Of a stretch of 64,000 nucleotides of DNA, positions 29,671 through 64,000 are shown piece after piece. The stretch's first letter is position 1; each line of letters starts with the position of its first letter. The stretch spans positions 33,294,001 through 33,358,000 of the forward strand of contig OX485806.1 in NCBI GenBank assembly GCA_950295325.1. Direction: 5' to 3'. The stretch is from Polytrichum commune. Taxonomy: Eukaryota; Streptophyta; Polytrichopsida; Polytrichales; Polytrichaceae. Under the pieces are notes generated by a model. It saw only the letters and a list, made by a program, of their open reading frames with translations, was not told where the DNA came from and did not search any database. The position numbers and the translations under genes are program-made.

Positions 29671-29677
29671 GGGGGGG

Positions 29678-31043
29678 ATGTCAACAATATAACAAGATTC
29701 GATCGTTGTGGATGGACATAACATTACTTAGCAACTATAGTAGAGGTGTCTAATCCTAATCAGGACTGGTACCGGAATTTCGATCCGGTTGGGATTGAAT
29801 TTCGGTCATGGTGGGACTAAGTTTTGATTAGGTTATAACCAATAGTGGCATGACACGTGTCTTGATGTTGAGTGCTAAAGTGAGGAGGAATGAACCGTTG
29901 AGATGAGGATGTCAACAATACAACAAGATTCGATCGTTGTGGATGGACATAACATTATTGAGCAACTATAGTCGAGGTGTCTACCTTTGACCAGGACTGG
30001 TACTGGAATTTTGATCAGGTTGGGATTGAATTTCGGTCATGGTGGGACTAAGTTTTGATTAGGCCGGAACCAATAGTGCCATGACACATGTCTTGGTGTT
30101 GAGTGCTAAAGTGAGGAGGAATGAACCGTTGAGATGAGGATGTCAACAATATAACAAGATTCGATTGTTGTGGATGGACATAACATTACTGAGCAACTAT
30201 AGTAGAGGTGTCTATTCCTGACCAGGACTCGTACCGGAATTTCGATCAGGTTGGGATTGAATTTCGGTCATGGTGGGACTAAGTTTTGATTAGGTTAGAA
30301 CCAATAGTGCCATGACACATGTCTTGATGTTGAGTGCTAAAGTGAGGAGGAATGAACCGTTGAAATGAGGATGTCAACAATATAACAAGATTCGATCGTT
30401 GTGGATGGACATAACATTATTGAGCAACTATAGTAGAGGTGTCTACCTTTGACCAAGACTGGTACTGGGATTTTGATAAGGTTGGGATTGAATTTTGGTC
30501 ATGGTGGGATTAAGTTTTGATTAGGCTGGAACCAATAGTGCCATGACACATGTCTTGATGTTGAGTGCTAAAATGGGGAGGAATGAACCGTTGAGATGAG
30601 GATGTCAACAATATAACAAGATTCGATCGTTGTGGATGGACATAACATTACTGAGCAACTATAGTCGAGGTGTCTATTCCCAACTAGGACCGGTACCGGA
30701 ATTTTGGTCAGGTTGGGATTGAATTTTGATCATGGCGGGACTAAGTTTTGGATAGGCCATAACCAATAGTGCCATGACACATGTCTTGATGTTGAGTGCT
30801 GAAGTGAGGAGAGATGAATTGTTGAGGTGAGGTTGTCAACAACATATCAAGATTCGATCGTTGTGGGTGGACACAACATTACTGAGCAACTATAGTAGAG
30901 GTGTCTAATCCCGACCAGGACCCGTACCGGAATTTTGATTAGGTTGGAACTGAATTTTGATCATGGTGGAACTAAGTTTTGATTAGGCCAAGACCAATAG
31001 TGCCATGACACATGTCTTGATGTTGAGTGTTGAAGTAAGGAGG
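29678..31043 (+). repeat. Tandem array, six units of ~230 bp
   Basis: Units start at about 29,678, 29,908, 30,139, 30,369, 30,601 and 30,831, each opening with a variant of GATGTCAACAATATAACAAG. They differ by scattered substitutions. The last unit is the most diverged and ends in a short AGGAGGA run. The unit length is in the range of plant satellite monomers, but six copies make this a local array. Two diverged inverted relatives lie at about 33,340-33,520 and 33,775-33,965. Confidence 0.9.
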
Positions 31044-31215
31044 AAGGAGGAAGGTACCATTGAAGTAAGCGGTTATTGATGCGAGTGTCGTTATATAGTC
31101 TTCTGATGGAAAAAATATGCATTGGACTAAAATTTCCAACACTTGGAAATCGACCAAAAAATGGAGGGCTTTGCCCTTTGGAGTTGGACGATGATGAAGT
31201 GCATTATGTAGGGAA

Positions 31216-33339: not shown

Positions 33340-33965
33340 TCGTAACCTCTCATTTTAACCACTCATTCCTCCTGAGCCGTGACATGTGTCGTGGCATTAT
33401 TGGTTCCACCCTGACCGAAATTCAACCAGAGGTTGATTAGAACTCAATACCAACGTGATTACAATTCCGGTACCCTATAGATTGCCGTTTGGGTCCTAAT
33501 CGGGAATAGGTGCCTCTACTATGCAGAGTTTTTGGTAGAAACAGTGGGTAGGTAGGTAGGTATAGAGTAGAGGCGCACGTAACCAATCACTTAAGAGATT
33601 TTGTGCCATATTTGGAGAAGTATAAGGCGGTGCAAATTTTTCTTGTGTAGGAAGATAGAAATTAGGAGGATTGCAAAACAATTAAAAAATTAATTCCTTA
33701 TTTTGAAATTACTATGAATTTTTGAAGCCAAAAGTTGGCCCAAACATATTACCAATGTCTATAGTTTGCCATAATTACTCATTTAAACCGCTCGTTCCTC
33801 CTCACTCTAGCACTCAAAACCGGGACATGTGTCATGGCATTATTGGTTCCAACCCAATCAAAGTTCAGTCCCATATAGTTCGAAATTCAATGCCAACTTG
33901 ATTGAGATTCCAATACCCATAGATTGCTCATGGGGTCGTGATTGGGAATAGGTGCCTCTACTATA
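33340..33965 (-). repeat. Two diverged solo units of the 230-bp repeat, inverted
   Basis: About 33,340-33,525 and 33,775-33,965 each carry the reverse complement of the unit's 'aatgaaccg', 'catgacacatgt', 'ccaatagtgcca' and 'tagtagaggtg' landmarks. Confidence 0.65.
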
Positions 33966-48619: not shown

Positions 48620-50560
48620 TGTTTGCCACGATGAATGTCCTATGCAAGGATCGTTCCATTTCTAATTACTTAAGGGGGGCCTTGATAAATGATGATTAAT
48701 GTCTCAAAACCATTGCTGGTAGCTATTCAGAGAAGATCAAGGACCAGTGCTGCTTTCTGTTCATCCAAAAATCAGTATGATGGGTAAGAGTTCTCAGAGA
48801 TCATTAACCTTTTTGATTGTGGTCTTCTCCCTGACTATGTTGCAATTTTTTTTGCTTTCGATTAACGTCACACATTTTTTATTAATGCTACAAATGTGTT
48901 GTGATATAGCACTGTTCTGAATGTAGTAAGGAAGAATTTATGGAGTACAGATCCAGGACAGGAGGCTAGGACAAGCCATCAGCCGCTTGTAGTTCCTTGA
49001 ACGAACTTGAACAAAGCCCATCATGAACTTTTCATAAAAGGGAGGGCGAGAGTAGGCACTTTTTTTGCTCTCAATTTCAATCGTTGCCATTGAAGGATTT
49101 GTGGCGCTATCCTGTATGTAGATTGGGAATAGTACCACATCATCTTCTCGCGAGTAGCTGCCCATAGTTATACTGTTCTCCCTCTTTATTAAGACATGTT
49201 TGGTTGTGCAAGAAAGTGTCAATTATCCAAATGTTGTATGCTTGGTAATATGACATTTTGGCCTCGAATGTCGTACTATTGAGGTTTTTCAAGAAAATGG
49301 CCTATTTCAATGTAAAATGACATTTTGTCTACATAATACAGGTACATAAGTATGAAAGAACATTTGTATTGAAAAAATATGCTCACAATGTTCCCCAATG
49401 TTCCTATGCATGTTCCAAAGCATTAATCACATATGAATCTTGAAATATGCGGGTCTCACCACTCATGCACATTGATTGCCTCCTTTATATGACAAATTGG
49501 CCCTAAAATTATTGTATACTGAGCTTCGAAGTTGTGGAATGGAGGTAAATTAACATGGGAAATGTGTCGTATACTCAAGGTGCTGTAATATGGAGGGTAG
49601 ACTGTCAAGAATGTTTTCATGTAATTAAGACCCATCAATCATGAGTAGACAACACCATATGTCAAGCAATATGAGCACTTCCAGGATTTTGATTCACACC
49701 TATGGCACTTGTTGGAATATCTGGTGTGGGAGTAAGCCAGGCATTTTCTATAGGTATTCACATTATCAGCCAAGGAAAAGACATAACTGTCAAGGTTGTG
49801 CAAGTGCAACTCACTTAAAATGCCATGAATCAGCAGAACGTTTGTACAGGAAATGACTTCCCAGTATGATTGCTCCTGTTCTCTTTCATGACCACAAATT
49901 GTGTGAAGTTTGAAGAACACGATGTTTGAAGCAAATGAAGTAGTAATCTGTTTGCTTGAATGTGTAAATTTGTGACATTTTCAGTGCACTTTCCCAACAC
50001 TGTATCACCACCCCTAACAATTTCATTGTTCTTCGATGAAAGTAACATAAACCTCATTCAAAAGAGATCTCAGGAAAACATGCATGAATACAAGTGGATA
50101 GAGAACAAGGTCAAAATTTCCCTGAGGCAGTCGATTGTTGTTTCTATAAGATGGCCAAACGAGATAGGTTTAGGAGCTAAAATCAACATAAAACTCCATT
50201 GAAATTATAACTCTACACTGCAAATTTACGATTTACAGGTGAAAGAGACTACCATCTGCTACTCCTAAGAGCGTTCCCCTTATTAATGGCCTTGCATCTA
50301 CCAACATCCACTTACTACTCTAGAAGAGAGTAGAATAAAGTACAAATCTTGTCTTGAAAGTCCTCAGCATCAACATGATGTGTCTCACAATGCTTCATTT
50401 GGACTTAATTGCACCAACAAGTAAAATCTGGATGGGAAAGACTAAGTTCCCAGAGGGCCAAATCAGTGTCAAAATGGAGGATGCAGCTGGAGTTCGGCGC
50501 TAGACGCCAGGTTCTCTGTACAAGTTTGACAGGTGAAAGAAGTGGCAAGGATTCTTTTGA
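48620..50560. other. Intergenic stretch between convergent genes
   Basis: No recognised coding sequence. The last few hundred bases before 50,562 should include the 3' UTR of the minus-strand gene, but no clear polyadenylation signal can be assigned. Confidence 0.5.
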
Positions 50561-50561
50561 A

Positions 50562-53492
50562 TTATGCATCATCTTCCACATCTTCCACTTCTTCCTCTAG
50601 AGACACTTTTTCAAAGCCCCCTTGTTCATATTTCTGGACCAGGAAAGAAGCTCGATTGCGTAGCTTTGTCGCAAAGGGCCTCTCATCACCAATAAAAATT
50701 TGTCGCGAACATGCTTTTAAGAAAAAGACCCACTTCTTTACGGCAAAATCGTCACAGTAATCTTGGTTACACCACAGGTACACATCCGCAAGCAACACCT
50801 GATAATAGACCTTGCTGAAGTGCACGACTTTTGCCTTGACATTCACTGAGTCAAAAAGTTTGGACACCTCCCGGGGAGTTGAAAGCACTTTCGTCATCTG
50901 CCTGGTGGTTTTCGTCAGTTCATGCAAGGCCAACTGTTGCTGCAGCTGAAGAACTCGCGTGCCAGTGCCACTCAAAGCCCCAATAAGATACACTCCATCG
51001 TGCAGCTCCGTCGTCAACTTTGAAATTGCGGCAACAACTCGTGGGCAACTAATTTGCCACTCCTCGTAACTAAAGTAGCGAATGAGCACCATGATACTTT
51101 CATGGACAAGATGTGTAATTGCAAGGATGCGGCGCTCAAGGGTAAGCCGAACCATGATGACCAACAAACTTTCCACATCTCCCTGTGTGTCCCGATGTCG
51201 TGGCGCCTTCGTCTCAAAACATGCTATTACAAATTCAAGGAGTGAGCGGAGGTTTTTTGGAGGTCCCTGCTCCTCAATGCTTTTCACTGGAGAGCTACCA
51301 TCGTCATTACAGCCCTTCTCCATGTACCCATACACATCAAGAGTTTCCTTGAAATCTGCCAGGGCCGGTAGCCAATCCAGCTTGAAAGGGGAACCACCCT
51401 GGTAACAAAAACCGAAAGGAAGCTCACATCAGTGCACCTGTTAACACAGGACCAGTAATACTGTGTTTGAAAGTGTTCGCATTATTTGGGGAGCGATCTA
51501 AAGAGCTGTTTGCATTCAGAATGTACCTGTATGAGAAAAGATGAGGCAATAGAACCAATAAACTTTATCCTCTAAGTGAAGATGGTCTTTTAGTTAGGAG
51601 TTGGTTGTTTTGCATACAACACCTTCTAGGTTCAGTAAGTTTTCAGTGCATGCTTGGAGTTGGTTATGTGGAGGTTTGAATAAAGAACATTCTATATCGG
51701 TTCATTGTGGGTCAAACTCATTTTGGCATGACAAAAAGTGCTAAAATGAGTTTGGCCCTAATGAACTGAAATAGGTTGCTCTCCAATTCAAATTCAAACA
51801 CTACCTCTGAGCATGCACCACAACTAGAAAGAAATTATTGATACTGTACGCAAAGCAACCAATGGAAATCTTAGGGGACCAGCTCCTGACAAAAAGTCCC
51901 ATTGACTTAAAAGGATAACTCAAATAGGCACAACAGAGAAATTGAAAAACGAAAAGAACAAAAGGTCCCTGAAGACAGGAAATCTCTAGAACAATACCTT
52001 AAAATATAGATAAGGCCACAAAATAGAAGGGGATTATATACATACCATGGTGCTTCTGGTGACAAGATCACATAAGATCTTGCAGGCAGCTCTCTCCACA
52101 GGTTCTTCTTTAGAGTACACCATCTCATGATAGGCCCATTTTAGAGTCGATTCATCACAACAGCCACAACACAAAGCCCATGATCGTATAAAACCTGAAC
52201 TGGCTAACAACTCCAGAGAAGCTTTCTTTCCTGTGCCGCTCGCTGTATACAATGCTTGGCATAGTAATTTGGCCCCACCATCTTCAGCCTGTCAAGCAAT
52301 GTACTGCTTTAGGATCCTTGAATTTGGTAGAACCACAAGATAGATAGCTGGTACTGAGCGGTGTAACAAAAACCATGTGTGAAGATGAGGTGCTATGATT
52401 GGATTGGAAAATGCACCAATGTCACCAAATTTTTAGAACAGTAAAAAATGTCATGGTTTATGGATTAGTGTGATTAACACTACAGTAGATAGACTACATG
52501 CTCGTTGTAGTGACTTGGACAAACTATACATGCCTTACTGATGAATTCAATGACAAAGCATGAAAACTATACTCCGGCATGCATTGAATAAATAGATGTT
52601 GTTAAGTGGAAGAAACATAATGCTCTCGGTTCCTGATTTGTAAAGCCCTAAATATTGGGTGTAACCACAGTGCACAACAGAGCGTGTATGAAGATGAGGT
52701 GTTTTGATTGGATTGAAAAGTGCACCAACTGCACCAAATTGCTAGGACAGTTTTTTTTTTTTTTTTTTTTTTTATAATCTCTCATGATTCATGACCAGTC
52801 TGATTGACACTAAGTCAAACCACATAATCATCGCAGTGACTTGAACAGAATATACATGGCGCAATGGTGAATTCAATGACAATACATGAAAACTATAGGT
52901 ACTCATGAATGTAGTGAATAAATGGATCTTGCCATATGGGACAAAATATAGCTCTCTGGGCTCCTGACGGGTAAAGCCCTAAGGTATATGGGTGTTGTTC
53001 AGTCTACTGATTGGGTTTATCTATGGAAGACATTTATCTATGGAAGGATGGTAGATATGGATATGGAGGCAGGTATAATGTGTACAGGGAATGACGTATA
53101 TAACTTACCAAGGGAGGAGGTTGCCTCTGTGCACCAAACACCAATTGGCCCCATTCAGCCACCACCTCATCTTCAAACTCGTTCTTCACACTCCTCTCCA
53201 GCTCCTGCAACAACTTGGGGGCTTTCTCGGTCCTCTCATCATCATCGGAAGAAGAATTGTAGAGGTACGAGTTTTTTGTGGCATTCACGGGCGCTGTTTT
53301 CTTCTTTTTGGAGTTGTTTTTGTTGTTGTTACCTTTGCGAGCATGCTCCTTCTCCGAAAGGAGATCGTCCAAATTGATCAACTTCCGTTGCCTTTTCTTC
53401 GCAGCATCTACTGCAGCTGCGGCTTCGGTCGCCGAGTTTGGAGTCAACTTGAGCCAATCCTCGTCATCATCAGCAGCATCAAGACTCGACAT
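50562..53492 (-). CDS. Three-exon gene, candidate SMC5/6-complex-associated protein (ASAP1/NSE6-like)
   Basis: Exons on the minus strand: 53492-53109, 52288-52046, 51398-50562. All introns are phase 0 with GTAAGT or GTATGT donors and CAG acceptors. The product is 487 residues. Its N-terminus is acidic then basic (SSLDAADDDEDWLK; KKRQRKLINLDDLLSEKEHARKG; a KKKK run; SSSDDDERTEKAPKLLQELERSVKNEF), which looks like a disordered nuclear region. The rest is predicted mostly helical, with a conserved-looking GGSPFKLDWLPALADF at the start of exon 3 and an acidic tail (EEEVEDVEDDA). There is no enzyme motif. The layout and motifs remind me of plant ASAP1/NSE6-type partners of the SMC5/6 complex (CANIN-like region), but this is recollection without a search. 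The gene structure is well supported and the function is tentative. Start chosen at MSSLD. An in-frame non-ATG codon lies upstream. Confidence 0.75.
51596..51935 (+). repeat. Dispersed repeat in intron 2 of the minus-strand gene (copy B)
   Basis: It matches 46,285-46,660 in the same chromosomal orientation, and therefore lies antisense to its host gene here. Confidence 0.7.
52366..52995 (+). repeat. ~310-bp tandem duplication within intron 1, with T23 tract
   Basis: Two diverged units (about 52,366-52,680 and 52,681-52,995) share 'gattggattg.aaa.tgcacca', 'gatgaattcaatgacaa' and 'gtaaagccctaa'. The second carries a T23 run at 52,751-52,773. Confidence 0.75.
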
Positions 53493-54330
53493 CTTGATGA
53501 AGATAAATGATTTCCTTATATGGATCCTTATTAATAATTCCAAAGACCAAGCCACTGTCAAAACCTCGATTTCCAATGCCTATCCCCCAATTTCCAGACT
53601 CGATGATGTCTTTAAGGTTTAGGCCCTTCTCCAACCTAGTGCAATGTAAATGGTGGCCACGAAATCGCTACAAATTCCTCACCAAAATGATTACACCGTA
53701 AACCCTTCACCAACATTTCCACTCAATTTGTTTTGCAATTCACATGCCAAAGACTCACACACACCATTCTCGCATACCAAACACTGACCAAACTCGGTGC
53801 ACGCCCTATCAAAAACGCTAAACCCTGAAATCCAAAACATGCACTGTCAAAGGGGACTCCGAGAAAGAAACTCCGAATTCGACGAGCTTCAGCTGCGCAG
53901 CAATTAAGACACCGAATGTAAGAATTGAAAGAAAAAGAAAAAGAACGCCCCAAATGGTGAACTCTTCTCCTTCTCCTTCTCCTTCTCCTTCTCCTTCTCC
54001 TCCCTTCCTTCCTTTCCTCACAAATCTGGGAGGATTTGAGCAGATTTCTTTGAGAAAAATCAGAGCAGCAGACGCAGCGATAACTTGGGGCGCGAACCGA
54101 GTGGCGAATGCGGAAAATCCGAGGTGGCTGAAACCGTCGCATTCGAAAGCAATCCTGAAATTTTGGCGCCGAGGAAAAGCCTTTAGCATGAGACAAGTGA
54201 CCCGAGACACTTCCGCCCCAAGACCCCCCGAAACTGAGTTCTCTCAAGAGGGGGGTCTTGGTTTTGGAGACGGGGGACTTGGGGCTTGCTCCCGCCAAAG
54301 GAGTGTGCGTTGAGACCGTTACCCTTGGGA
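53493..54330 (-). promoter_or_regulatory. Probable promoter / 5' leader of the minus-strand gene
   Basis: Upstream of the minus-strand start the sequence becomes more GC-rich (about 53,850-54,310) and includes a CTCCTT hexamer run at 53,967-54,002. Long open frames on both strands here have low-complexity or unrecognised translations. Confidence 0.4.
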
Positions 54331-54339
54331 ACAGGGTAT

Positions 54340-55470
54340 AAGATCCGGGTATGTAGGATTTATATACAATGGACAAGGTGGTGGTGGTGGTGGTGGTGTT
54401 GCTGGTGGCCGTCAACCCATTGTTCTGCCATCATTTTAAAAATTTGGGGGACCATGTTAAAGTGATGTATCATATGTACAGGTGCAAAGACATGTGAAGA
54501 ACTTATAAAATAATATGTCGAATAAGCGTTGATAAGGTATGCAGGTGTTTTTCGGTTATTTTTCTTAATTGAACACTTATATTTGATTGGTGTGTGCTTC
54601 AATGAGGACTCAAGAACAAACAAGTTTTTAAAAACATGTTTTTAAAAGTGATTAGACTATATAGTCAAAACTTTGTTATTGATTTCACTCTCAATAATAA
54701 AGATAGTTGGGAGGTGTTATGTATTCAGTTAAGGAATCAACAAACATGCGTATCCAAAAACCATAACCAAATCGAGGGAGGTGTGTGATTTGTGATCCTA
54801 TTGTTGTTGATGCAAAGAGAGAAAAATTAAAAATTAAAAATTAAATTAAATTAAATCTTTAAAAATCTTTGAATTACACACGTTTACCTTATGCTAACTT
54901 AGCATGTCCCACATCATTGAGCACCTCGTTCCATTCCTATGCCAAAAACATTCTTCCTAACTCCATTTTATATCAATAGTATAATCGTGTTGCATAATAA
55001 CCCTATGGCCCCATAATGTTCTTGCCTAATGCATTTCATTTCATTTCTCAATAGTTTTACAACGGTAAGTTGTCTCATAGAATAGCATGTAGCGCCATAG
55101 TGTTTATTTTCTTTGTTTATATTGAAAATCTAATATGAGTTAAATACACCCATGTGTCGTTAATAATGACAACCATCAAATGAGGCCCATCTCTTGATAT
55201 TCGTGAACAATTAGGTTTGAATAATCAATGCATGTGCCTTGGGACAGGGCTCGGCACCTGCCATGACCTCAACATCCCCACAAACCCCCCTCATTCTACA
55301 AGAGCCATCTCTCTCTCTCTCTCTCTCTCTCTACTTAGTTCTTGATAGGCCATTGAAAGACTGTAACACTTTGTATAATGACCCTATATAAGGTTCCACC
55401 TTAGGGGTCCAGCAAAGGGAGGTTAAAAAAGGCTCAGCTGTGGATCCAGAACTTGCATCTACGGTCACAA
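54340..55470. other. Intergenic AT-rich stretch
   Basis: (GGT)n near 54,378, AATT-type runs near 54,825 and (CT)n near 55,310. No supported gene. Confidence 0.6.
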
Positions 55471-55482
55471 AAGTTTACCTAA

Positions 55483-56295
55483 TCTTATAATAAGAGGAAG
55501 CCAACCTCGGTACTTCCTTTCCAAGTGTAAACCGCATTAGCAGTTTACACTAAGTAACTTCTGGGATTAGGGTAAACGTGACGTGAGTTTGTAGGAAGTG
55601 GAAGTGACTGACTTCAAGCTTTGAACGTCAAAGGAAGCCAATGGCTAAAGAACATGTAAAATACTCATTGAAAGCATTGAGTATTGTGTATGATGGGGAT
55701 ACTAAATGTATGATTATGCCGTACGTATAAGTTTGTGTGACATAGATAACAATTGGGTTCTGCTGTAATTCACCTCGTGTACGTTACTAACCCTCTCCGT
55801 GGATTTGGTTGGTGGCATGGGCACAGGTGAGGCAAACCCTTCACAAATATGACGGCTACATTAGGTTTTGTATACCATCTGATTGCAAAATAGTGTATGT
55901 AGATGAAGGTTACAAAAAACATATGCAATGACCAGTTCTATTCTACATTGCAAGTTGTTGAGCATATGATTGGTGTTACCATTTTACATTTGATTTACTG
56001 GAGCTTAGTTGTTAGGAGACTATGATAGGTTTTACATTGGAAAACCTTAGTATTATGGAATACTCCAAGGTTTTACTTGTAACAAAAATATGTGTAAGAA
56101 GCTCCATAGTGTTATGTTTTAGCACTTGCATTGCAATGGGATGGGGAAAGATCCCACCCACCCTCCCGGGTTTTGTTAGATACATAGATATATGGAAGAA
56201 TGGTATGGCCTCTTGCCAAGAGGATGTTATTTGAAAAAGAACTATGCTTGAAAGTAAGCTTAGGTTCTCTCAAGAAATGCCCAGCTCTATATATA
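55483..56295 (+). repeat. Left copy of ~0.8-kb direct repeat flanking the CACTA element
   Basis: It aligns with 61,030-61,850 in the same orientation. Shared stretches include TATAATAAGAGGA, 'tttacactaagtaactt', 'gtgacatagataacaattgg', 'tggtggcatgggcac' and 'cccacccaccctccc.ggttttgt'. Divergence is moderate with indels. It may be an LTR pair, or a tandem duplicate into which the CACTA element inserted. No clear TG...CA termini were seen. Confidence 0.8.
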
Positions 56296-59200
56296 TATTT
56301 TTTGTTTTACCTTAACCATAGATTAACTGAACCAATAACTTATATTAAATCCAAGGTTAAGCCACTTTAGGGTTAGGTTAGTTTCAAACTAACTAATCTC
56401 CACCATAGATCTGCGACTGGGGCATCTATGGTTATGAAAGGCACTACAAGAAAACCAGCCCAATGTGACCGGATGTGACTAAGGGCATATGACTATGTAG
56501 TCACCTCAATCATTGGTTTAGTCTAAAATCAGTCCTAAGAGGGTCCAGTCATGGTCTAGTCATATACGTAGTCATATTTTTGAGGACCTGGGTGGGAACG
56601 TCTACGGGAACGGGACATATGTTCTCCTGCCCGGTTCCCAGAGTCATGCTATGAGTGCTCACTATGTGTAGTCATGCTAATGCTAATGCGTTATGTATGT
56701 CTTATTGTAGTAAGAGAGTTGGTTTGGGTGACTACATGACTTCCTGTAGTAAATGAATTGACTAATAGTTGTCATATATTTTAATCAGATGATTTTGAAG
56801 TCCTCTAGTCGTTGGCTCCATGGGTGAGTGTTGTGATATAGAAGTAGGTCTATAATCTTCACTTACATAATAGCTCGTCTATTCAACACTACCATGTCTG
56901 CGCGCAAACATGATCACGTGTCATTTTAGAGGCACCCCATCATAGAAACAGGAACTAAACACACCTTCAAAAATTAGTAAGTAATTGGCTTGGGCGTCCA
57001 AAAATCATGATTCCACTTGGAATATCTTCCCACTTTCTTTTCAGATGCATGACATTGCCGTGTATGCTTAACCAGGCTACAGAATTCCCATGCTCACAAC
57101 AAAGCCGTTATTGATCACCTTCCCATACTTTTTTGAGATGCCAAAGTGTTTGCAAAATAACGTAGTCATGTGGACAGTTTTCTTTACTGGATTCAGTCAT
57201 GACTGCGATATAACATAGTCACAGACACAATTTCCTTTACTTATATTGGTAATGAACCCCCTTTGTCCATACAACTTTAATTTGTTAACTGTACAATCTC
57301 TGTGACTACTCTTTTGCTGTACCGAAATTCTACAGATAGTAGTTGGGCTCCTACAGTCCTACTGTGGTGATTCATCATTGTAGTTTGCCTCTGTATCCTC
57401 CATTTGCATAGCAAGATGCACCTCGTTGCTAGAAAGCTCCCTGGAACTTGATAAAACAGGTGGCATTGCTACGGTATCATCAGCGACATGATGTGCCATC
57501 AATCCCTGAGCTACAACATCGTCGCATAAGCTTAGGCAGTGTAGATCTGGTCTTCCTTCAGCCATGGAAGTCACTCTCACACTTCGTGCCTCTTTGCGTA
57601 GAACTACCTTCCATCCAGGATGTGCCACATCGTCAACAAAGAAGACCTGTTGAGCATGAAGAGGAAACGCAAACGAATCCGATGAGTACGGAATGGTACG
57701 GTCAATGTTCACGAGAGTGAAACCGTACTCATCTCTTTTCATAGTTGCCCGTGGCCCAATCCATGTGGCGCGGACCCACTTACAATACAGTAGGAGTATT
57801 TCGAACTTCCCATAGTCAGCCCCAATAATCTCTTCGACCCACCCCACGTACTCCACGTTCACAAGCCTGTGATTCTTGTCCTTTCTGCTGGAACGGCAAG
57901 ATTGTGAGAATGTTGCGGCTACTCCGCTGTCGCACGTTGACAAGTGGCCCTCTGCTCCTCACACACGTATATGGTTCCCGTATGCATACATGCTGTGATA
58001 CGATTTTGCCTCGCATGAAGGTGGTAGGACAAGGCCAAGAATATCTTCATGGACCTCTGTGCCTGCTGCCACATCCCGTTGCACCGCGATAGGAAACCAC
58101 TCAGAAAACTGTTCGTTCCTTGCGATTGCTGGATACTCTGCTCTTCTGCCCCGTGATCGACGACATATCTCTGCACGCATTTTGTGCCACGTTTCCATCT
58201 CCAAGTAGTGACGTCTGATTGGAAGCCACAGTGGATGGAAATTTTTTACATAACAAAAATAGCCGGCAGATAAATGTAAACGTCATCAACATCTAATTCC
58301 CTAGTCATGTGTTGCAATATGATGACTGGAATTAGTACGCAATAGACCTTTGTTGACTATAGAGTCACATTGTCCCTTCTAGACAGAGTGCATGACTAAA
58401 ACATGTGATGCTTACTCTCTGTATGACTGTAGAGGCTCAGCATTCGTGAGAACAAACTCGTGAATCCGTGCCCTCAGCTCTGATGTCAAGAGTCAATATC
58501 GACCTGTACCCTCCGCGACCTCACTCTTGGCCCCTACTTCCTCCTCATCGTCCCAAGTCCTCCTGCGTGTTAGCTCACAGTCTTGCATGTACTCTGTGCA
58601 AAATCCTAACGCCTCCTCTATTGTGTACCCCCTCGCCATGGATCCCTCAGGTTTTGCTCGTTGCCTAACATAGCCCTTCAGTCTCTTCAGGTACCGCTCA
58701 ATAGGATACATCCATCGGGTGTGTACGGGACCACATATATCCAACTGCTGCACCAGGTGAATGGGGAGGTGCGACATGACATCAAAAAATGAAGGTGGAA
58801 AAACCATCTCTAGCATGCATAGAGTCTCAGCTGTGTACTCCAATAACTGTTCCATGGACGAGGGATCTACGGATTTTGCGCACAATCGTACAAACACCCG
58901 GCTAAGCCGCATTATTGCCACCCACGTATCCCTGTCTAAGAGAGTGCGCAAACACAAGGGGAGCAATTGTTGCATCAAGACATGGTAGTCATGAGATTTC
59001 AGCCCCTTCAAGTCCCCATCCGACCCAATGCATTTTGCAAGTTGGCCAGCGTAGTTCGTAGGAGTCTTCAAATTGCGGATAATGTCTATGAATTTTACCT
59101 TCTGTTCTTTCGATAGTACATATGGAGCTGTTGGAAGTACGACATACCCAGGTTTCCTTCCTGGAAAAGGGTGCAGATATGGTCGAATGTTGGCCTCTTT

Positions 59201-59415
59201 TAAGTCTAGCCGGGCCTTCAAAGTGTCACGGACTCCCCAAATTGTTTTCATCACGTTCTCGCAGATGCTTTTTTCGCAGTGCATGGGATCCAAAAGATGT
59301 CTAATGAGGAGGTCATGCCAGAAATCCCAGCAAAGTATTCCAGCGTCAAATTTACTCACTTTCGACAAAGACTCTTAAGCATTCATTGAAAAGATATAGG
59401 TCCATGTTTTGTTTC

Positions 59416-59825
59416 ATCCATACTGGCAGTCATGGATTTCATAAATTGTACTATTCACAGTCACTCTTCTTACCAACCAGGTTACTAGAGTCAGTCAACA
59501 ATTATAACTGAACATACTGGAACCAGTGATTGATTTCAGAAATTGCACTATTCACATTCAACCTGCTAACCGTGTTTGTTACTAGAGTCAGTCAACAATT
59601 CTAACTATCAGTTACTGGAACCAGTGATTGATTTCAGAAATTGCACTATTCACATTCAACCAGATAAGCGTGTTTGTTACTAGATTCAGTCAACAATTCT
59701 AAATATCAGTTACTGGAACCAGTGATTGATTTCAGAAATTGCACTATTCACATTCAACCAGATAAGCGTGTTTGTTACTAGATTCAGTCAACAATTCTAA
59801 ATGTCAGTTACTGGAACCTGTGAAT
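59416..59825. repeat. 98-bp tandem repeat in a CACTA transposase intron
   Basis: Units begin GTTACTAGA at about 59,481, 59,578, 59,676 and 59,774 (98-bp period), plus a diverged partial unit before them. Each has 'gtcagtcaacaatt', 'tactggaaccagtgattgat' and 'aaattgcactattcacattc'. About 1.5 further units lie in the other intron at 60,430-60,572. Confidence 0.9.
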
Positions 59826-60357
59826 GCGCTAAGTACCTGCCAATACGGAAGCTTGTACAGAGCGGAGAGCCGCTTCACTTCGGTGCGCTGAATGGGATCG
59901 CCTTCTCCTCCACCTCTTCTTCCCTGTGACTCTTGTAGGAAGGACAATCTTTCTTGTGCATAGCCCTTGATGTCGCATCCTGTTAGAATTGGAGGGGGAG
60001 GTCGGTACTCCTGTTGACCATCAAATGAATGCCTGAGCCTACGATATGGATGCCATCTACTGAGATACCGGCAGTGACCTAAATATACATTCTTTCCGAG
60101 AGCCTTTGACCGCCGAGTTGTAACATCTGGCCCACACTCGGTACACACTCTATACCCTTTTGTGACTTGGCCAGATGTGAGTCCGTACGTAGGGAAGTCG
60201 TGAATGCACCAAAGAAGTAGAGCCCGTAGTTTAAAATGTTGTCTTGGGGGCTCTTCAGACAAATCTATGGCTGGTACCCCTTTCCAAAGTTCCAAGAGCT
60301 CTTCAATCAATGGAGTAAGGTACACATCGATGTTCTCCGAGGTCACGCTCTCGCGAC

Positions 60358-60625
60358 CTGGAATAAGCAATACAAGCATGATGAAAAATGGCTTTGTCAC
60401 TAGTCATGCAGACAAATTATAGTAAACCTTCTTACCATGCTCGTTACTAGATGCAGTCAACAATTATGAGTGTAGATACTGGAACCAGTGACTGGTTTCA
60501 GAAATTGCATTATTCACAATCAACCTTCTTACCATGCTGGTTACTAGATGCAGTCATCAGTTATGAGTGTAAGCAATACCTGGAATAAGCAATGCAAGCA
60601 TGATAAAAAATGGCTTTGTTACTAG
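60358..60625 (-). repeat. Duplicated exon end forming an intron boundary
   Basis: A block of about 60 bp ending GCTTATTCCAG (minus strand) occurs twice, at about 60,640-60,580 and 60,417-60,358. Splicing from the first CCAG|GTATTG to the second CCAG|GTCGCG removes exactly 222 bp (60,579-60,358) and rejoins LLIPG to RESVTSENIDVYL in frame. Confidence 0.75.
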
Positions 60626-61029
60626 CCATGCATGCAAATTATAGTTCACCAGAAGGACCGGCCATGTCGAGTGACTGAGCGACTGGTTTCCGAACGGATT
60701 CACACCGTCCAATGCCATCCCCAAGCGTATGTTCCTATGCTCATATGTAAAGTTGGCATCCAACGAATCAATATGCTTCCAGGCCTTCGAGTCGGGGACG
60801 CATTCCACGTTAATACCCTCCTTCTTCTGATTGGCGTGCCATTTGTTAAGTTCCGCCAATCTTTTGCACCGGTACATGCGCTTCAAACGGGGAATCAACG
60901 GAAAGTGGCGTAGGATTTTGGATGGGATTGGGCTGGACTCTGACTTGTATCTCGAGGCGTTGCACTTTGGACAGGACTTTGCATCCTGCAACTCCTTCCT
61001 GAATAGGCAACATCCATAGGTTACATTGC

Positions 61030-61850
61030 TCTATAATAAGAGGACGAGTCCATTAGGACTTCCTTTTCACTGGCTTAACCGCAGGGAATGTTTACACTAA
61101 GTAACTTTCGGACTTAGTATAAAAAAAGACACAACACTTGAGCTGGGTGGTGTATGTAACCCAACTCTTACTTTGGTTACACGAGGTTCAGATGGCTAAG
61201 GAACAGGTAGAATACTTCATGAAAGTATGTGTATTCTTTTTTGCAAAATATGTATGTATGTTGTACATTATTGTGTGACATAGATAACAATTGGGTTCTA
61301 CTGTGATTCACCTCGTATACGTTACTAACCCTCTCTTTGGATTTGGTTGGTGGCATGGGCACAAGTGAGGCAGACCCTTCACAAATTTGACAACATCATT
61401 AGGTTTTGCATATCAACTTCTATCAAGGAATTTGTGTACTTTGAGCGTCAACATTCTTTGATTATGAATGTTAGACTACACATATGGCAATGATAGGACT
61501 TTGAAGTACTTATGGGTTAGATATATACTTGAGAATGATATGTTATGGATATAATATACTTTAGGTTACATGTATGGGATGCATTGTAAAACCATAGTAA
61601 CGAAAGTTTACTTATGGTTGATGATACATATACTTAGAAGCATGCCAAGAAGAGACAATGACTTTGATAGTTTGCTTGCTTAACCAAGGCACGAGTATAG
61701 GGGATGAACCCACCCACCCTCCCAGGTTTTGTAAGGTACATGGATATATGCAATGGAATGGAATGGCCTCTTGATAAGAGGATGTGTTGCACAAAAACTA
61801 AGTTTGAAAGTAAGCTTAGCTATAAGCAAGAAAAGCCCAACTCTCTCTCT
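61030..61850 (+). repeat. Right copy of the ~0.8-kb direct repeat flanking the CACTA element
   Basis: Counterpart of 55,483-56,295. It begins CTATAATAAGAGGACGAG directly against the truncated transposase frame and ends near a (CT)n run. Confidence 0.8.
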
Positions 61851-61859
61851 CTCTCTGGA

Positions 61860-62900
61860 TATTTCATCGATTGCAAAACATCAAATATGCCAAGCAAGCA
61901 ATAAGTAGTGTGTTTCCATGTGCATTGGCCATGAGGGACGCCGTGGATTAATGTAATGCCATAAAAGCATGATTGACTCACTAGGGCCTATGTTGGTTTA
62001 TGGAGCGGTGATGAGGTGGCTTTAGGAGCTAATTATGTGCGGTTGGCAGCTAGGGTGGTGATCATCAACAAGCAAGTGAACCTACATTTCAATCGGTGTC
62101 AAGTAACCTGGGGTTTCTATCCCAGGAGGGAAGGTGACACAGTGCTAGTAATGGCAAAGGCTTCATGTGGCAATCGTCTGCATTAGTTTGGGGTAGGTGT
62201 CATATGGTGGGAGCTCGTAATTGGAAGGCGGCTAGGGGTGTAAACTACATTCGTCGTTGAGCAGTAGGGAGGTGCATTGTGGTGGGTCTTCATCAAGGGA
62301 ATCATGTGTGTGAGGATGCATTGTGCAACCTTTTGTGGTTTGATTTTATTTTTTTATGTATGTAAGGTTGCAAGTGGGCTCTTCGTGGAGGATAGTATAG
62401 ATGAAGCTTTTTAGCTTCTGTTTTGGAACTAAAGTTTCCTTCCTATGAGTGATGTGTAAATCTATTGTGATTGTTTTGTTTTTCCCGCTTTGGTGCCTAG
62501 CCTTCTAATTAATGTAACTCCCATAACCAATCTTAATGTGACATCACTTTTAATGTAACTCCCATTAATGTGACATTACTTTTACACCGTATCTTAGTGG
62601 GCCCACTCAAGAAATCACTCCTTCTAGCTCAAGAAACCAATCTTCATAAGTACACTCTAAACTTTGTAATATTACGCTTGTGGCAACCAAAATACACTTA
62701 ATAGTAAGGTGTTATGTAGTGTTAACATGGGTGCGTGATACAAGAAATTGAGTGTAGCATGTGACACTATGGAATAATACAAAACAAACATTGCAATAAT
62801 GACAACGTGATGCGTGCGAGTGTGGGGATTGAATTCTTTGGTGGTTTACTTTGATGTCAAAATCCGTGATATATGGGAGGGAGATGTGATAACAAGGAGT
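61860..62900. other. Intergenic stretch before the IscA-like gene
   Basis: No recognised gene. It has a short local repeat 'taatgtaactccca' / 'taatgtgacat.actttta' near 62,510-62,590. Confidence 0.55.
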
Positions 62901-63045
62901 GAAATTGAAATTGAGAACATTCGTTCCCTAGGGTTTCAAATATAAGAGAAGGAGTGACATTAAGGAGGTTGATATTGCAGAGTCATCAGACCCGCATGTA
63001 AAATCCTCCCTCCATTGGGAACGAATTGGGAACATGAAGGGAACG

Positions 63046-63051
63046 CACGTG
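63046..63051. promoter_or_regulatory. G-box (CACGTG) upstream of the IscA-like gene
   Basis: The palindromic CACGTG core lies 241 bp before the predicted ATG, inside GAACGCACGTGTTG. G-boxes are common bZIP/bHLH sites in plant promoters. Function here is inferred from position only. It also lies inside a 71-codon ATG-initiated frame (63,034-63,249), which would be an upstream ORF if transcription starts earlier. Confidence 0.35.
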
Positions 63052-63291
63052 TTGTTTCCTGCTCTCTCTCTGTCTCTCTGTGGGGCTATGGCGATTGGCT
63101 ATGGCCGAAAACCCCCTTCACCGCAAACCCTAATTCACGCTTTCCTCTATAATCCATCATGTCACATTCTGCCATCCACTTCACATACCCTTGCGCAACC
63201 CTCACATGTTCTAAGAAATTATTTTATGTTTAAAAGAGGTTCATTTTGATCACTGAAGCATATCTTAGTTCTCAATTCGGTGCACTCTGCA

Positions 63292-63777
63292 ATGGCGAGG
63301 CGTGAAGCTCTGCCATTATTGCGAGCCTGGAAATCTTTTCGTGTAGTCACATCGGCGAGGAATTCTTCTTCTCCTAATTTGGGTCGTTCTCTGGTGTCCG
63401 ATCCAGCCCTACAGTCTCACAGTTGTGTACAGAGTTTGAACAGGGCCTCAGAAATAGTAGAAATTCTAGATTGCAAGAGTTCGGGTCTCGCTGTTAGGCA
63501 TCAGGTGCAGTCGATTGATATTCCAAATTCTGTAATTAGGGTTCCGGGACGATTTGCTCAGGCAATTTTTAGTACTCTAAGAGGTTCAGTTTCGAGTTCA
63601 GGTTTAGGTTCAGGGTTTTGCAATGTATTGGATGGAGTAGAAGATAGGTTGGGAATTGTGGTGGCACGGAATGGGAATGGGATTAGGCACCAGCATGTGT
63701 CGACAGCCGAAGAACCCAAACCTGCGGAGGAGACGACGACCCAGGAGGGGATCACCTTGACCGACAGTTGCATACGG
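63292..63777 (+). CDS. First exon of an organelle-targeted IscA-like iron-sulfur assembly protein (partial)
   Basis: Starting at MARREALPLLRAWKSFRV, the exon encodes 162 residues and ends in phase 0 at ...CGG|GTACTT. The N-terminus has several Arg, many Ser, and Ala and Leu, and no acidic residue apart from one early Glu, which is typical of a mitochondrial presequence. The final residues, EGITLTDSCIR, match the start of the A-type Fe-S carrier fold (family pattern: LT-x-CIRRLKEL), most like plant mitochondrial ISCA2-type proteins. The Fe-S-binding cysteines of the core would lie in later exons outside the window, so the assignment rests on one short motif plus the targeting-type N-terminus. 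The presequence-like region is long for the family (~150 residues). Confidence 0.6.
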
Positions 63778-64000
63778 GTACTTACACCAATTTTCTACTT
63801 TGCATTCGGGTTCTAATTTCATGTAAAATGGTTGAGTATCACAAGATAGTACTAAGTTCGGGTTTTATCCTTAGCAATACTTAGGACATGAATTTTAATG
63901 TATGATGATGTATGATGTGGAATTCTAAGCTGAATCATTTTGTGAACCTGAATTTTTCCGCTCTACTTTTGACGATTCATGTAAAATGGTGGAGTAGCTC
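63778..64000 (+). other. First intron of the IscA-like gene (partial)
   Basis: It starts with the GTACTT donor. No acceptor followed by an RLKEL-type continuation is seen before the window ends. Confidence 0.5.

Follow-up and report, generated by a model that had tools for sequence, protein, structure and literature searches.

Gained introns with a recognisable source sequence are few (PMC4974935). The cases described for the AG|GT tandem-duplication model include ATP2A1, fission yeast and potato RdRp (PMC4974935), and the model is also covered in a review, Table 1 of which counts 188 events (PMC3443670). In Daphnia, neointrons were found in which the end of the adjacent exon is repeated over 4-12 bp at the far end of the intron (PMC4202315). 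In rice, tandem duplications were the commonest insertions, they were enriched at 50-200 bp, and they were attributed to patch repair (PMC7971508). According to a review, the sequence inserted in such events may come from ectopic donors or from sites no more than 200 bp away from the break (PMC7407515).

The transposases of CACTA elements have three conserved intron regions (Regions I-III) and a clade-wide gained Region G, which in Baron, Korbin and Chester precedes Region I by 208 residues (PMC4158355, Table 1). The gain of Region G was inferred from position and phylogeny, and the accessible part of that article names no source sequence. Among the literature matches listed, and as far as their accessible text goes, this positional case was the only intron gain reported for a CACTA transposase, and none had the form described below. 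In Chenopodium, a ~40-bp fragment of the tnp2 transposase gene seeds genome satellites (PMC7320549).

In the present analysis a stretch of 64,000 nucleotides from Polytrichum commune was studied (the window). The preferred reading, with a probability of about 0.6, is that it contains a phase-1 spliceosomal intron that was made by duplication of the last ~68-73 bp of an exon, together with a repeat-derived spacer of 154 bp. As in the published AG|GT cases, an exon segment with AGGT is present twice, the first copy would supply the donor and the second the acceptor, and the protein would remain unchanged (compare PMC4974935). A pyrimidine tract and, judged by eye, perhaps a branch site came with the duplicated segment as well, which is a parallel to ATP2A1. 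In contrast to these cases, in which the copies abut and the intron is wholly exon-derived, a repeat-derived spacer separates the two copies, and the host is a transposase gene. The sequence-only reading had placed the locus under the AG|GT tandem-duplication model. This assignment stands for the exon-tail copy, for the AG|GT at both ends and for the phase-1 restoration of the protein, but not for the arrangement of the copies.

The introns attributed to staggered break repair, including those of Daphnia, have an adjacent exon end copied at the far intron end, filler in between and internal direct repeats (PMC3443670), and the same arrangement is found here, with a 68-bp exon end at the acceptor side and a 154-bp filler. 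However, the duplicated exon end of 68-73 bp is far from the 4-12 bp of Daphnia (PMC4202315), and the kin of the filler, the repeat of the neighbouring intron, is recognisable. Like other CACTA/En-Spm transposases, for which one gain has been reported, the gene has several introns (PMC4158355). LLIPG| lies 173 codons before the next intron, in contrast to the 208 residues between Region G and Region I; compared by distance, the candidate site would differ from Region G if the next intron corresponds to Region I. Tandem repeats inside a CACTA element recall the Chenopodium satellites (PMC7320549), whereas the 98-bp array lies in introns here and its kinship to coding sequence is only suggestive. 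Taken together, the locus is a good, although unproven, candidate for an intron born by exon duplication; events of this kind are known, and it is the setting that is new.

The CACTA transposase gene and its duplicated exon tail

The features of the gene are compiled in Table 1.

Table 1. Positions in the window of the candidate intron and the surrounding parts of the element
Feature	Position	Strand	Basis or detail
Exon upstream of the candidate intron, KELQDAKSCPKC...ALLIPG, first part of Transposase_21	60580..60998	-	ORF; PF02992 positions 9-81, E 8.9e-26
Copy 1 of the 68-bp exon tail, coding, NYNLHAWLVTKPFFIMLALLIPG, with candidate donor CCAG|GTATTG	60578..60645	-	self-comparison
Candidate intron, 222 nt, phase 1, GT...AG, 37.4% GC, 33% T	60358..60579	-	
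154-bp spacer between the exon-tail copies, ~1.5 units of the 98-bp repeat, spacing 97	60424..60577	-	
Copy 2 of the exon tail, 3′ end of the candidate intron, YYNLSA*LVTKPFFIMLVLLIPG	60356..60423	-	
Next exon, G-RESVTSENIDVYL...KLPYWQ, rest of Transposase_21	59837..60357	-	PF02992 positions 68-207, E 5.2e-39
98-bp tandem array within the next intron	59419..59826	-	4.1 copies, 59427-59823
Downstream exon with DUF4218, in-frame TGA at 58495-58493	58418..59314	-	Pfam
Last exon with DUF4216, in-frame TGA at 57961-57959, TAG at end	57359..58213	-	Pfam
3′ terminal inverted repeat CACTACAAGAAAACC	56442..56456	+	sole exact match in the window

Judged by its domains and its exact 3′ terminus, the region is a minus-strand transposase gene of a CACTA element, and the identity proposed for the host gene was thus borne out. 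Pfam searches revealed Transposase_21 (PF02992), which is split over two adjoining ORFs (E 8.9e-26 and 5.2e-39), DUF4218 (E 1.1e-39) and DUF4216 (E 8.8e-11). The latter two domains accompany CACTA elements. Together with the terminal repeat, these families point to a plant as the host. The upstream exon is preceded by a good acceptor (CTATTCAG|G, last G at 60999), which ranked second of 190 AGs. Relatives of the transposase were detected neither in viral contigs (searched with the exon 1 and exon 2 proteins) nor in genome contigs (searched with the exon 2 protein), as expected for a plant element.

A 5′ partner of CACTACAAGAAAACC was not found as a 15-mer with up to three mismatches on the minus strand of the window up to 64000. 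One 12-mer partner with two mismatches is present at 63337-63348, and the 13 such 12-mers in the window, versus 8.2 expected, are within chance; bare CACTAC occurs at 62721 and 61910. Three minus-strand ORFs, from 52 ORFs listed, gave no Pfam match to the missing N-terminal part in 60900-64000. With two in-frame TGAs and no convincing 5′ end or TIR found, this copy of the element looks dead and is probably 5′-truncated. Two copies of a ~810 bp direct repeat (55486-56290 and 61032-61845, stretches of 30-148 nt at 74-90% identity) are located just outside the 3′ terminus of the element and just before the first recognisable exon, respectively, and it seems that the 5′ part of the element was lost or displaced at this repeat.

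An exon end of ~60 bp finishing with CCAG|GT had been described as duplicated. It was found as an ungapped direct repeat of 68 bp (60578-60645 and 60356-60423, minus strand), with 62 of 68 positions identical, which extends by five bases to 73 nt at 89% identity (60578-60650 and 60356-60428). When 60200-60700 was shuffled 100 times by mononucleotide, no 68-nt self-match had more than 36 identical positions. CCAGGT terminates both copies; exactly as had been reported, copy 1 leads into the donor CCAG|GTATTG (60580|60579), while copy 2 gives a pyrimidine-rich tract and the acceptor TTCCAG|GTCGCG (60358|60357). The duplicated tail is also visible in the Pfam matches of the two ORFs, which overlap at profile positions 68-81.

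The two copies differ at six positions, five of which are transitions. At the H/S site the domain scored 199.0 bits with P, 194.5 bits with the H of copy 1 and 194.9 bits with S, and the codon of each copy seems to have arisen from an ancestral CCT by a single-base change of its own. When all residues of copy 2 were put in for those of copy 1, with X at the stop, the score was 185.8 bits, a cost of 8.7. The pattern fits sister copies of a proline-bearing ancestor, in which copy 1 would have been held by coding and copy 2 would have drifted, including a change from TGG to TGA.

Splice signals, decay of the gene and rival explanations

Excision of the 222 nt joins LLIPG to RESVTSENIDVYL in phase 1, and the joined exons gave one unbroken Transposase_21 match (profile 9-207 of 213, 224.3 bits, E 1.3e-66), the score of which is about the sum of the two separate pieces (90.8 and 134.1 bits). 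The earlier claim that the removal keeps the frame thus agrees with the domain match. If the segment were retained, the message would contain four in-frame stops. However, frame restoration was rejected as proof of an intron, because any direct repeat gives it automatically; on its own it is weak evidence.

This point is central to the first rival explanation, namely that a 222-bp duplication with filler disabled an element that was already dead, and that it was never an intron except on paper. Any direct repeat that ends in AGGT can be 'spliced' back, and AGGT is present in 517 of 2412 70-nt windows of the gene's exons. The apparent death of the element, with its two in-frame TGAs and without a recognisable 5′ end, suits this explanation as well. 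Nevertheless, it was judged unlikely, on account of splice signals, composition and coding decay. With a hand-written splice matrix, the donor scored 8.0; among the 169 GTs in 58300-61100 it was third, a rank shared with two ATG|GTAAGA sites of the spacer (60532 and 60435). The acceptor scored 8.3 and was third of 190 AGs. The candidate donor is without a G at +5. The composition is intron-like: the GC content of the candidate is 0.374 versus 0.485 and 0.498 in the flanking exons, and it is 0.360 in 59355-59837, the region taken as the next intron. RNA folding of 60330-60660 yielded a z of -2.2, with 2 of 100 shuffles as good, which has no clear meaning, as the repeats share parts.

To quantify the decay of the gene, the copies were assumed to have been identical at the start, which corresponds to ~4.7% change per copy, and 0.1 indels per substitution with 80% of them frame-shifting were assumed. 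Neutral decay over 2685 coding nt would then yield ~4.9 stops and ~10 frameshifts, versus two and zero observed; the exon limits had been set by the analyst, and a frameshift next to an exon end could escape notice. The joint P was 6e-6 at the point estimate under the assumed indel rates. At the lower confidence limit of the divergence it was 0.02 with 0.1 and 0.12 with 0.05 indels per substitution. Taken by itself, the number of stops is compatible with neutral decay (P 0.14 for two or fewer), as would suit an element that was dead from the outset. For much of the period after the duplication, constraint probably acted on the gene, and such a constraint would mean that the 222 nt had to be removed from the message. 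The strength of the splice sites, the composition and the low number of disabling changes in the exons speak for a working intron that arose by duplication.

A second rival explanation is that an old intron with repeats of the 98-bp type already existed at this site, and that a copy of the exon tail later entered its 3′ end and took the place of the old acceptor. The several conserved introns of CACTA transposases (PMC4158355) would allow this, and the spacer differs from the array by 17-20% in its three longest matches, versus 9% between the exon copies. Yet this contrast in divergence has a Fisher P of 0.14, the copied tail must have landed exactly with its own CCAG abutting GTCGCG, and the last AG of the spacer (AAGAAG|GT) is purine-rich and by eye a poor acceptor. 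Such a history therefore appears rather improbable.

An assembly or collapse artefact is very improbable: although nearby tandem repeats are hard to assemble, the exon-tail copies differ at six positions, two 50-nt repeats in the spacer differ by 6%, and the window contains no N. CACTA elements make target-site duplications of 3 bp, and a target-site duplication of an inserted element was rejected, as 68 bp is far beyond this size.

The spacer, the 98-bp repeat and a possible route of origin

The spacer of 154 bp (60424-60577) keeps the exon-tail copies from lying back to back. Compared with the array in the next intron, it is 80-83% identical in the three longest matches, which span 132-139 nt. 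The intron had been said to have acquired 98-bp repeats after its birth; the kinship was confirmed, whereas this order of events is one of two that fit. The spacer comprises only ~1.5 units, and the full array of 4.1 copies belongs to the next intron. At the upstream joint the TTCCAG of the exon and that of the repeat unit are 3-4 nt out of register (one alignment needs a 3-nt gap, and MAFFT, with unit 1 cut at TTCCAG, places them four columns apart). At the other, downstream joint the AAGAAGGT of the repeat meets the point at which copy 1 has CTTCTGGT, and the common GGT is only 3 bp long. These short matches could be traces of microhomology-guided copying.

For the preferred reading, intron gain by exon duplication, the following course can be envisaged. 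The starting point would have been a continuous exon without an interruption at LLIPG|. During repair or a template switch, synthesis would have departed from the exon close to TTCCAG, run through ~1.5 repeat units of the array in the neighbouring intron or a relative of it, and re-entered the exon through GGT at a point ~70 bp back. The CCAG|GT of copy 1 could then have served as donor, and the pyrimidine-rich TTTTTCATCATGCTTGTATTGCTTATTCCAG of copy 2 as tract and acceptor, perhaps also with a branch site (by eye), so that the mRNA would have been unchanged by the new intron. The gene would have worked on until the copies were ~9% apart, and this copy of the element would have died thereafter. 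Alternatively, a clean 70-bp tandem duplication with the joint GGT, followed by a later insertion of the repeat at the same GGT, would lead to the same end state. Because the spacer is repeat-derived and short matches are present at both joints, a single repair event appears about as good as the two steps, and both fit.

The best array match of the spacer differs at 23 of 135 positions, versus 6 of 68 for the exon copies. A larger divergence of the spacer would favour an older or a different source, and it runs against the prediction of a one-step origin from this very array; however, the difference is not significant (Fisher P 0.14), and dating the spacer against the exon copies was dropped.

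The exon tail itself may be akin to the 98-bp unit. It was compared with the array and the spacer under strict and loose settings, and its scores were set against those of 787 windows from elsewhere in the exons (taken every 3 nt, excluding overlaps with copy 1) and of 3000 stretches from the whole window. The score against the array was reached by none of the exon windows in either setting and by 21 (strict) and 10 (loose) stretches, the score against the spacer by zero and two exon windows and by 27 and 37 stretches, and both scores together by zero and zero exon windows and by 32 and 14 stretches. Dinucleotide shuffles reached the score in 3 to 11 of 500 in four pairings. A descent of the 98-bp unit from the exon tail is suggestive, as a lead only. 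It is tempting to speculate that one microhomology-guided template switch brought donor, acceptor, tract and filler together inside a live transposon, and that the 98-bp unit perhaps descends from this exon tail as well and has diverged from it over a long time, but this full combination was considered improbable, the more so as TTCCAG is 3-4 nt off register. If the 98-bp unit does descend from the exon tail, both introns would be products of one recurring process.

The basis for intron gain is one element, which is apparently dead. Multi-copy transposon families lend themselves to a search for the states before and after an intron gain, because sister copies in the same genome could keep intermediate states: an uninterrupted LLIPG-(R/K)ESVTSENIDVYL exon, the bare duplication, or the duplication with the spacer. 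If intron gain by exon duplication is confirmed, this one locus would unite tandem duplication with filler-containing break repair, both of them standard models.

Several further observations were made in the window. The motif TGACT/AGTCA occurs ~20 times per kb in the 98-bp array (59419-59826), where the count is inflated by the repeat structure, and at a similar density in the subterminal region (56442-57000), versus 5 per kb in 57362-59314 and 1.4 in 50000-55000; the 98-bp repeats may be related to subterminal protein-binding motifs. At the 3′ end of the next intron (59314-59374) no AG was seen by eye that joins KLPYWQ| directly in phase to DLLIRHLLDPMH, and the in-phase AG before 59371 would add 19 residues at the junction; the acceptor of this intron may be damaged in this copy of the element. 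A plus-strand ORF of 188 aa (63250-63816) weakly matches a plant TPR family (E 0.009, which does not pass the curated cut-off) and may represent the first exon of a host gene at the border of the element. Elsewhere in the window, a 231-bp tandem array with 5.9 copies at 90% is present at 29676-31045, and inverted partial matches to it lie at 33778-33917.
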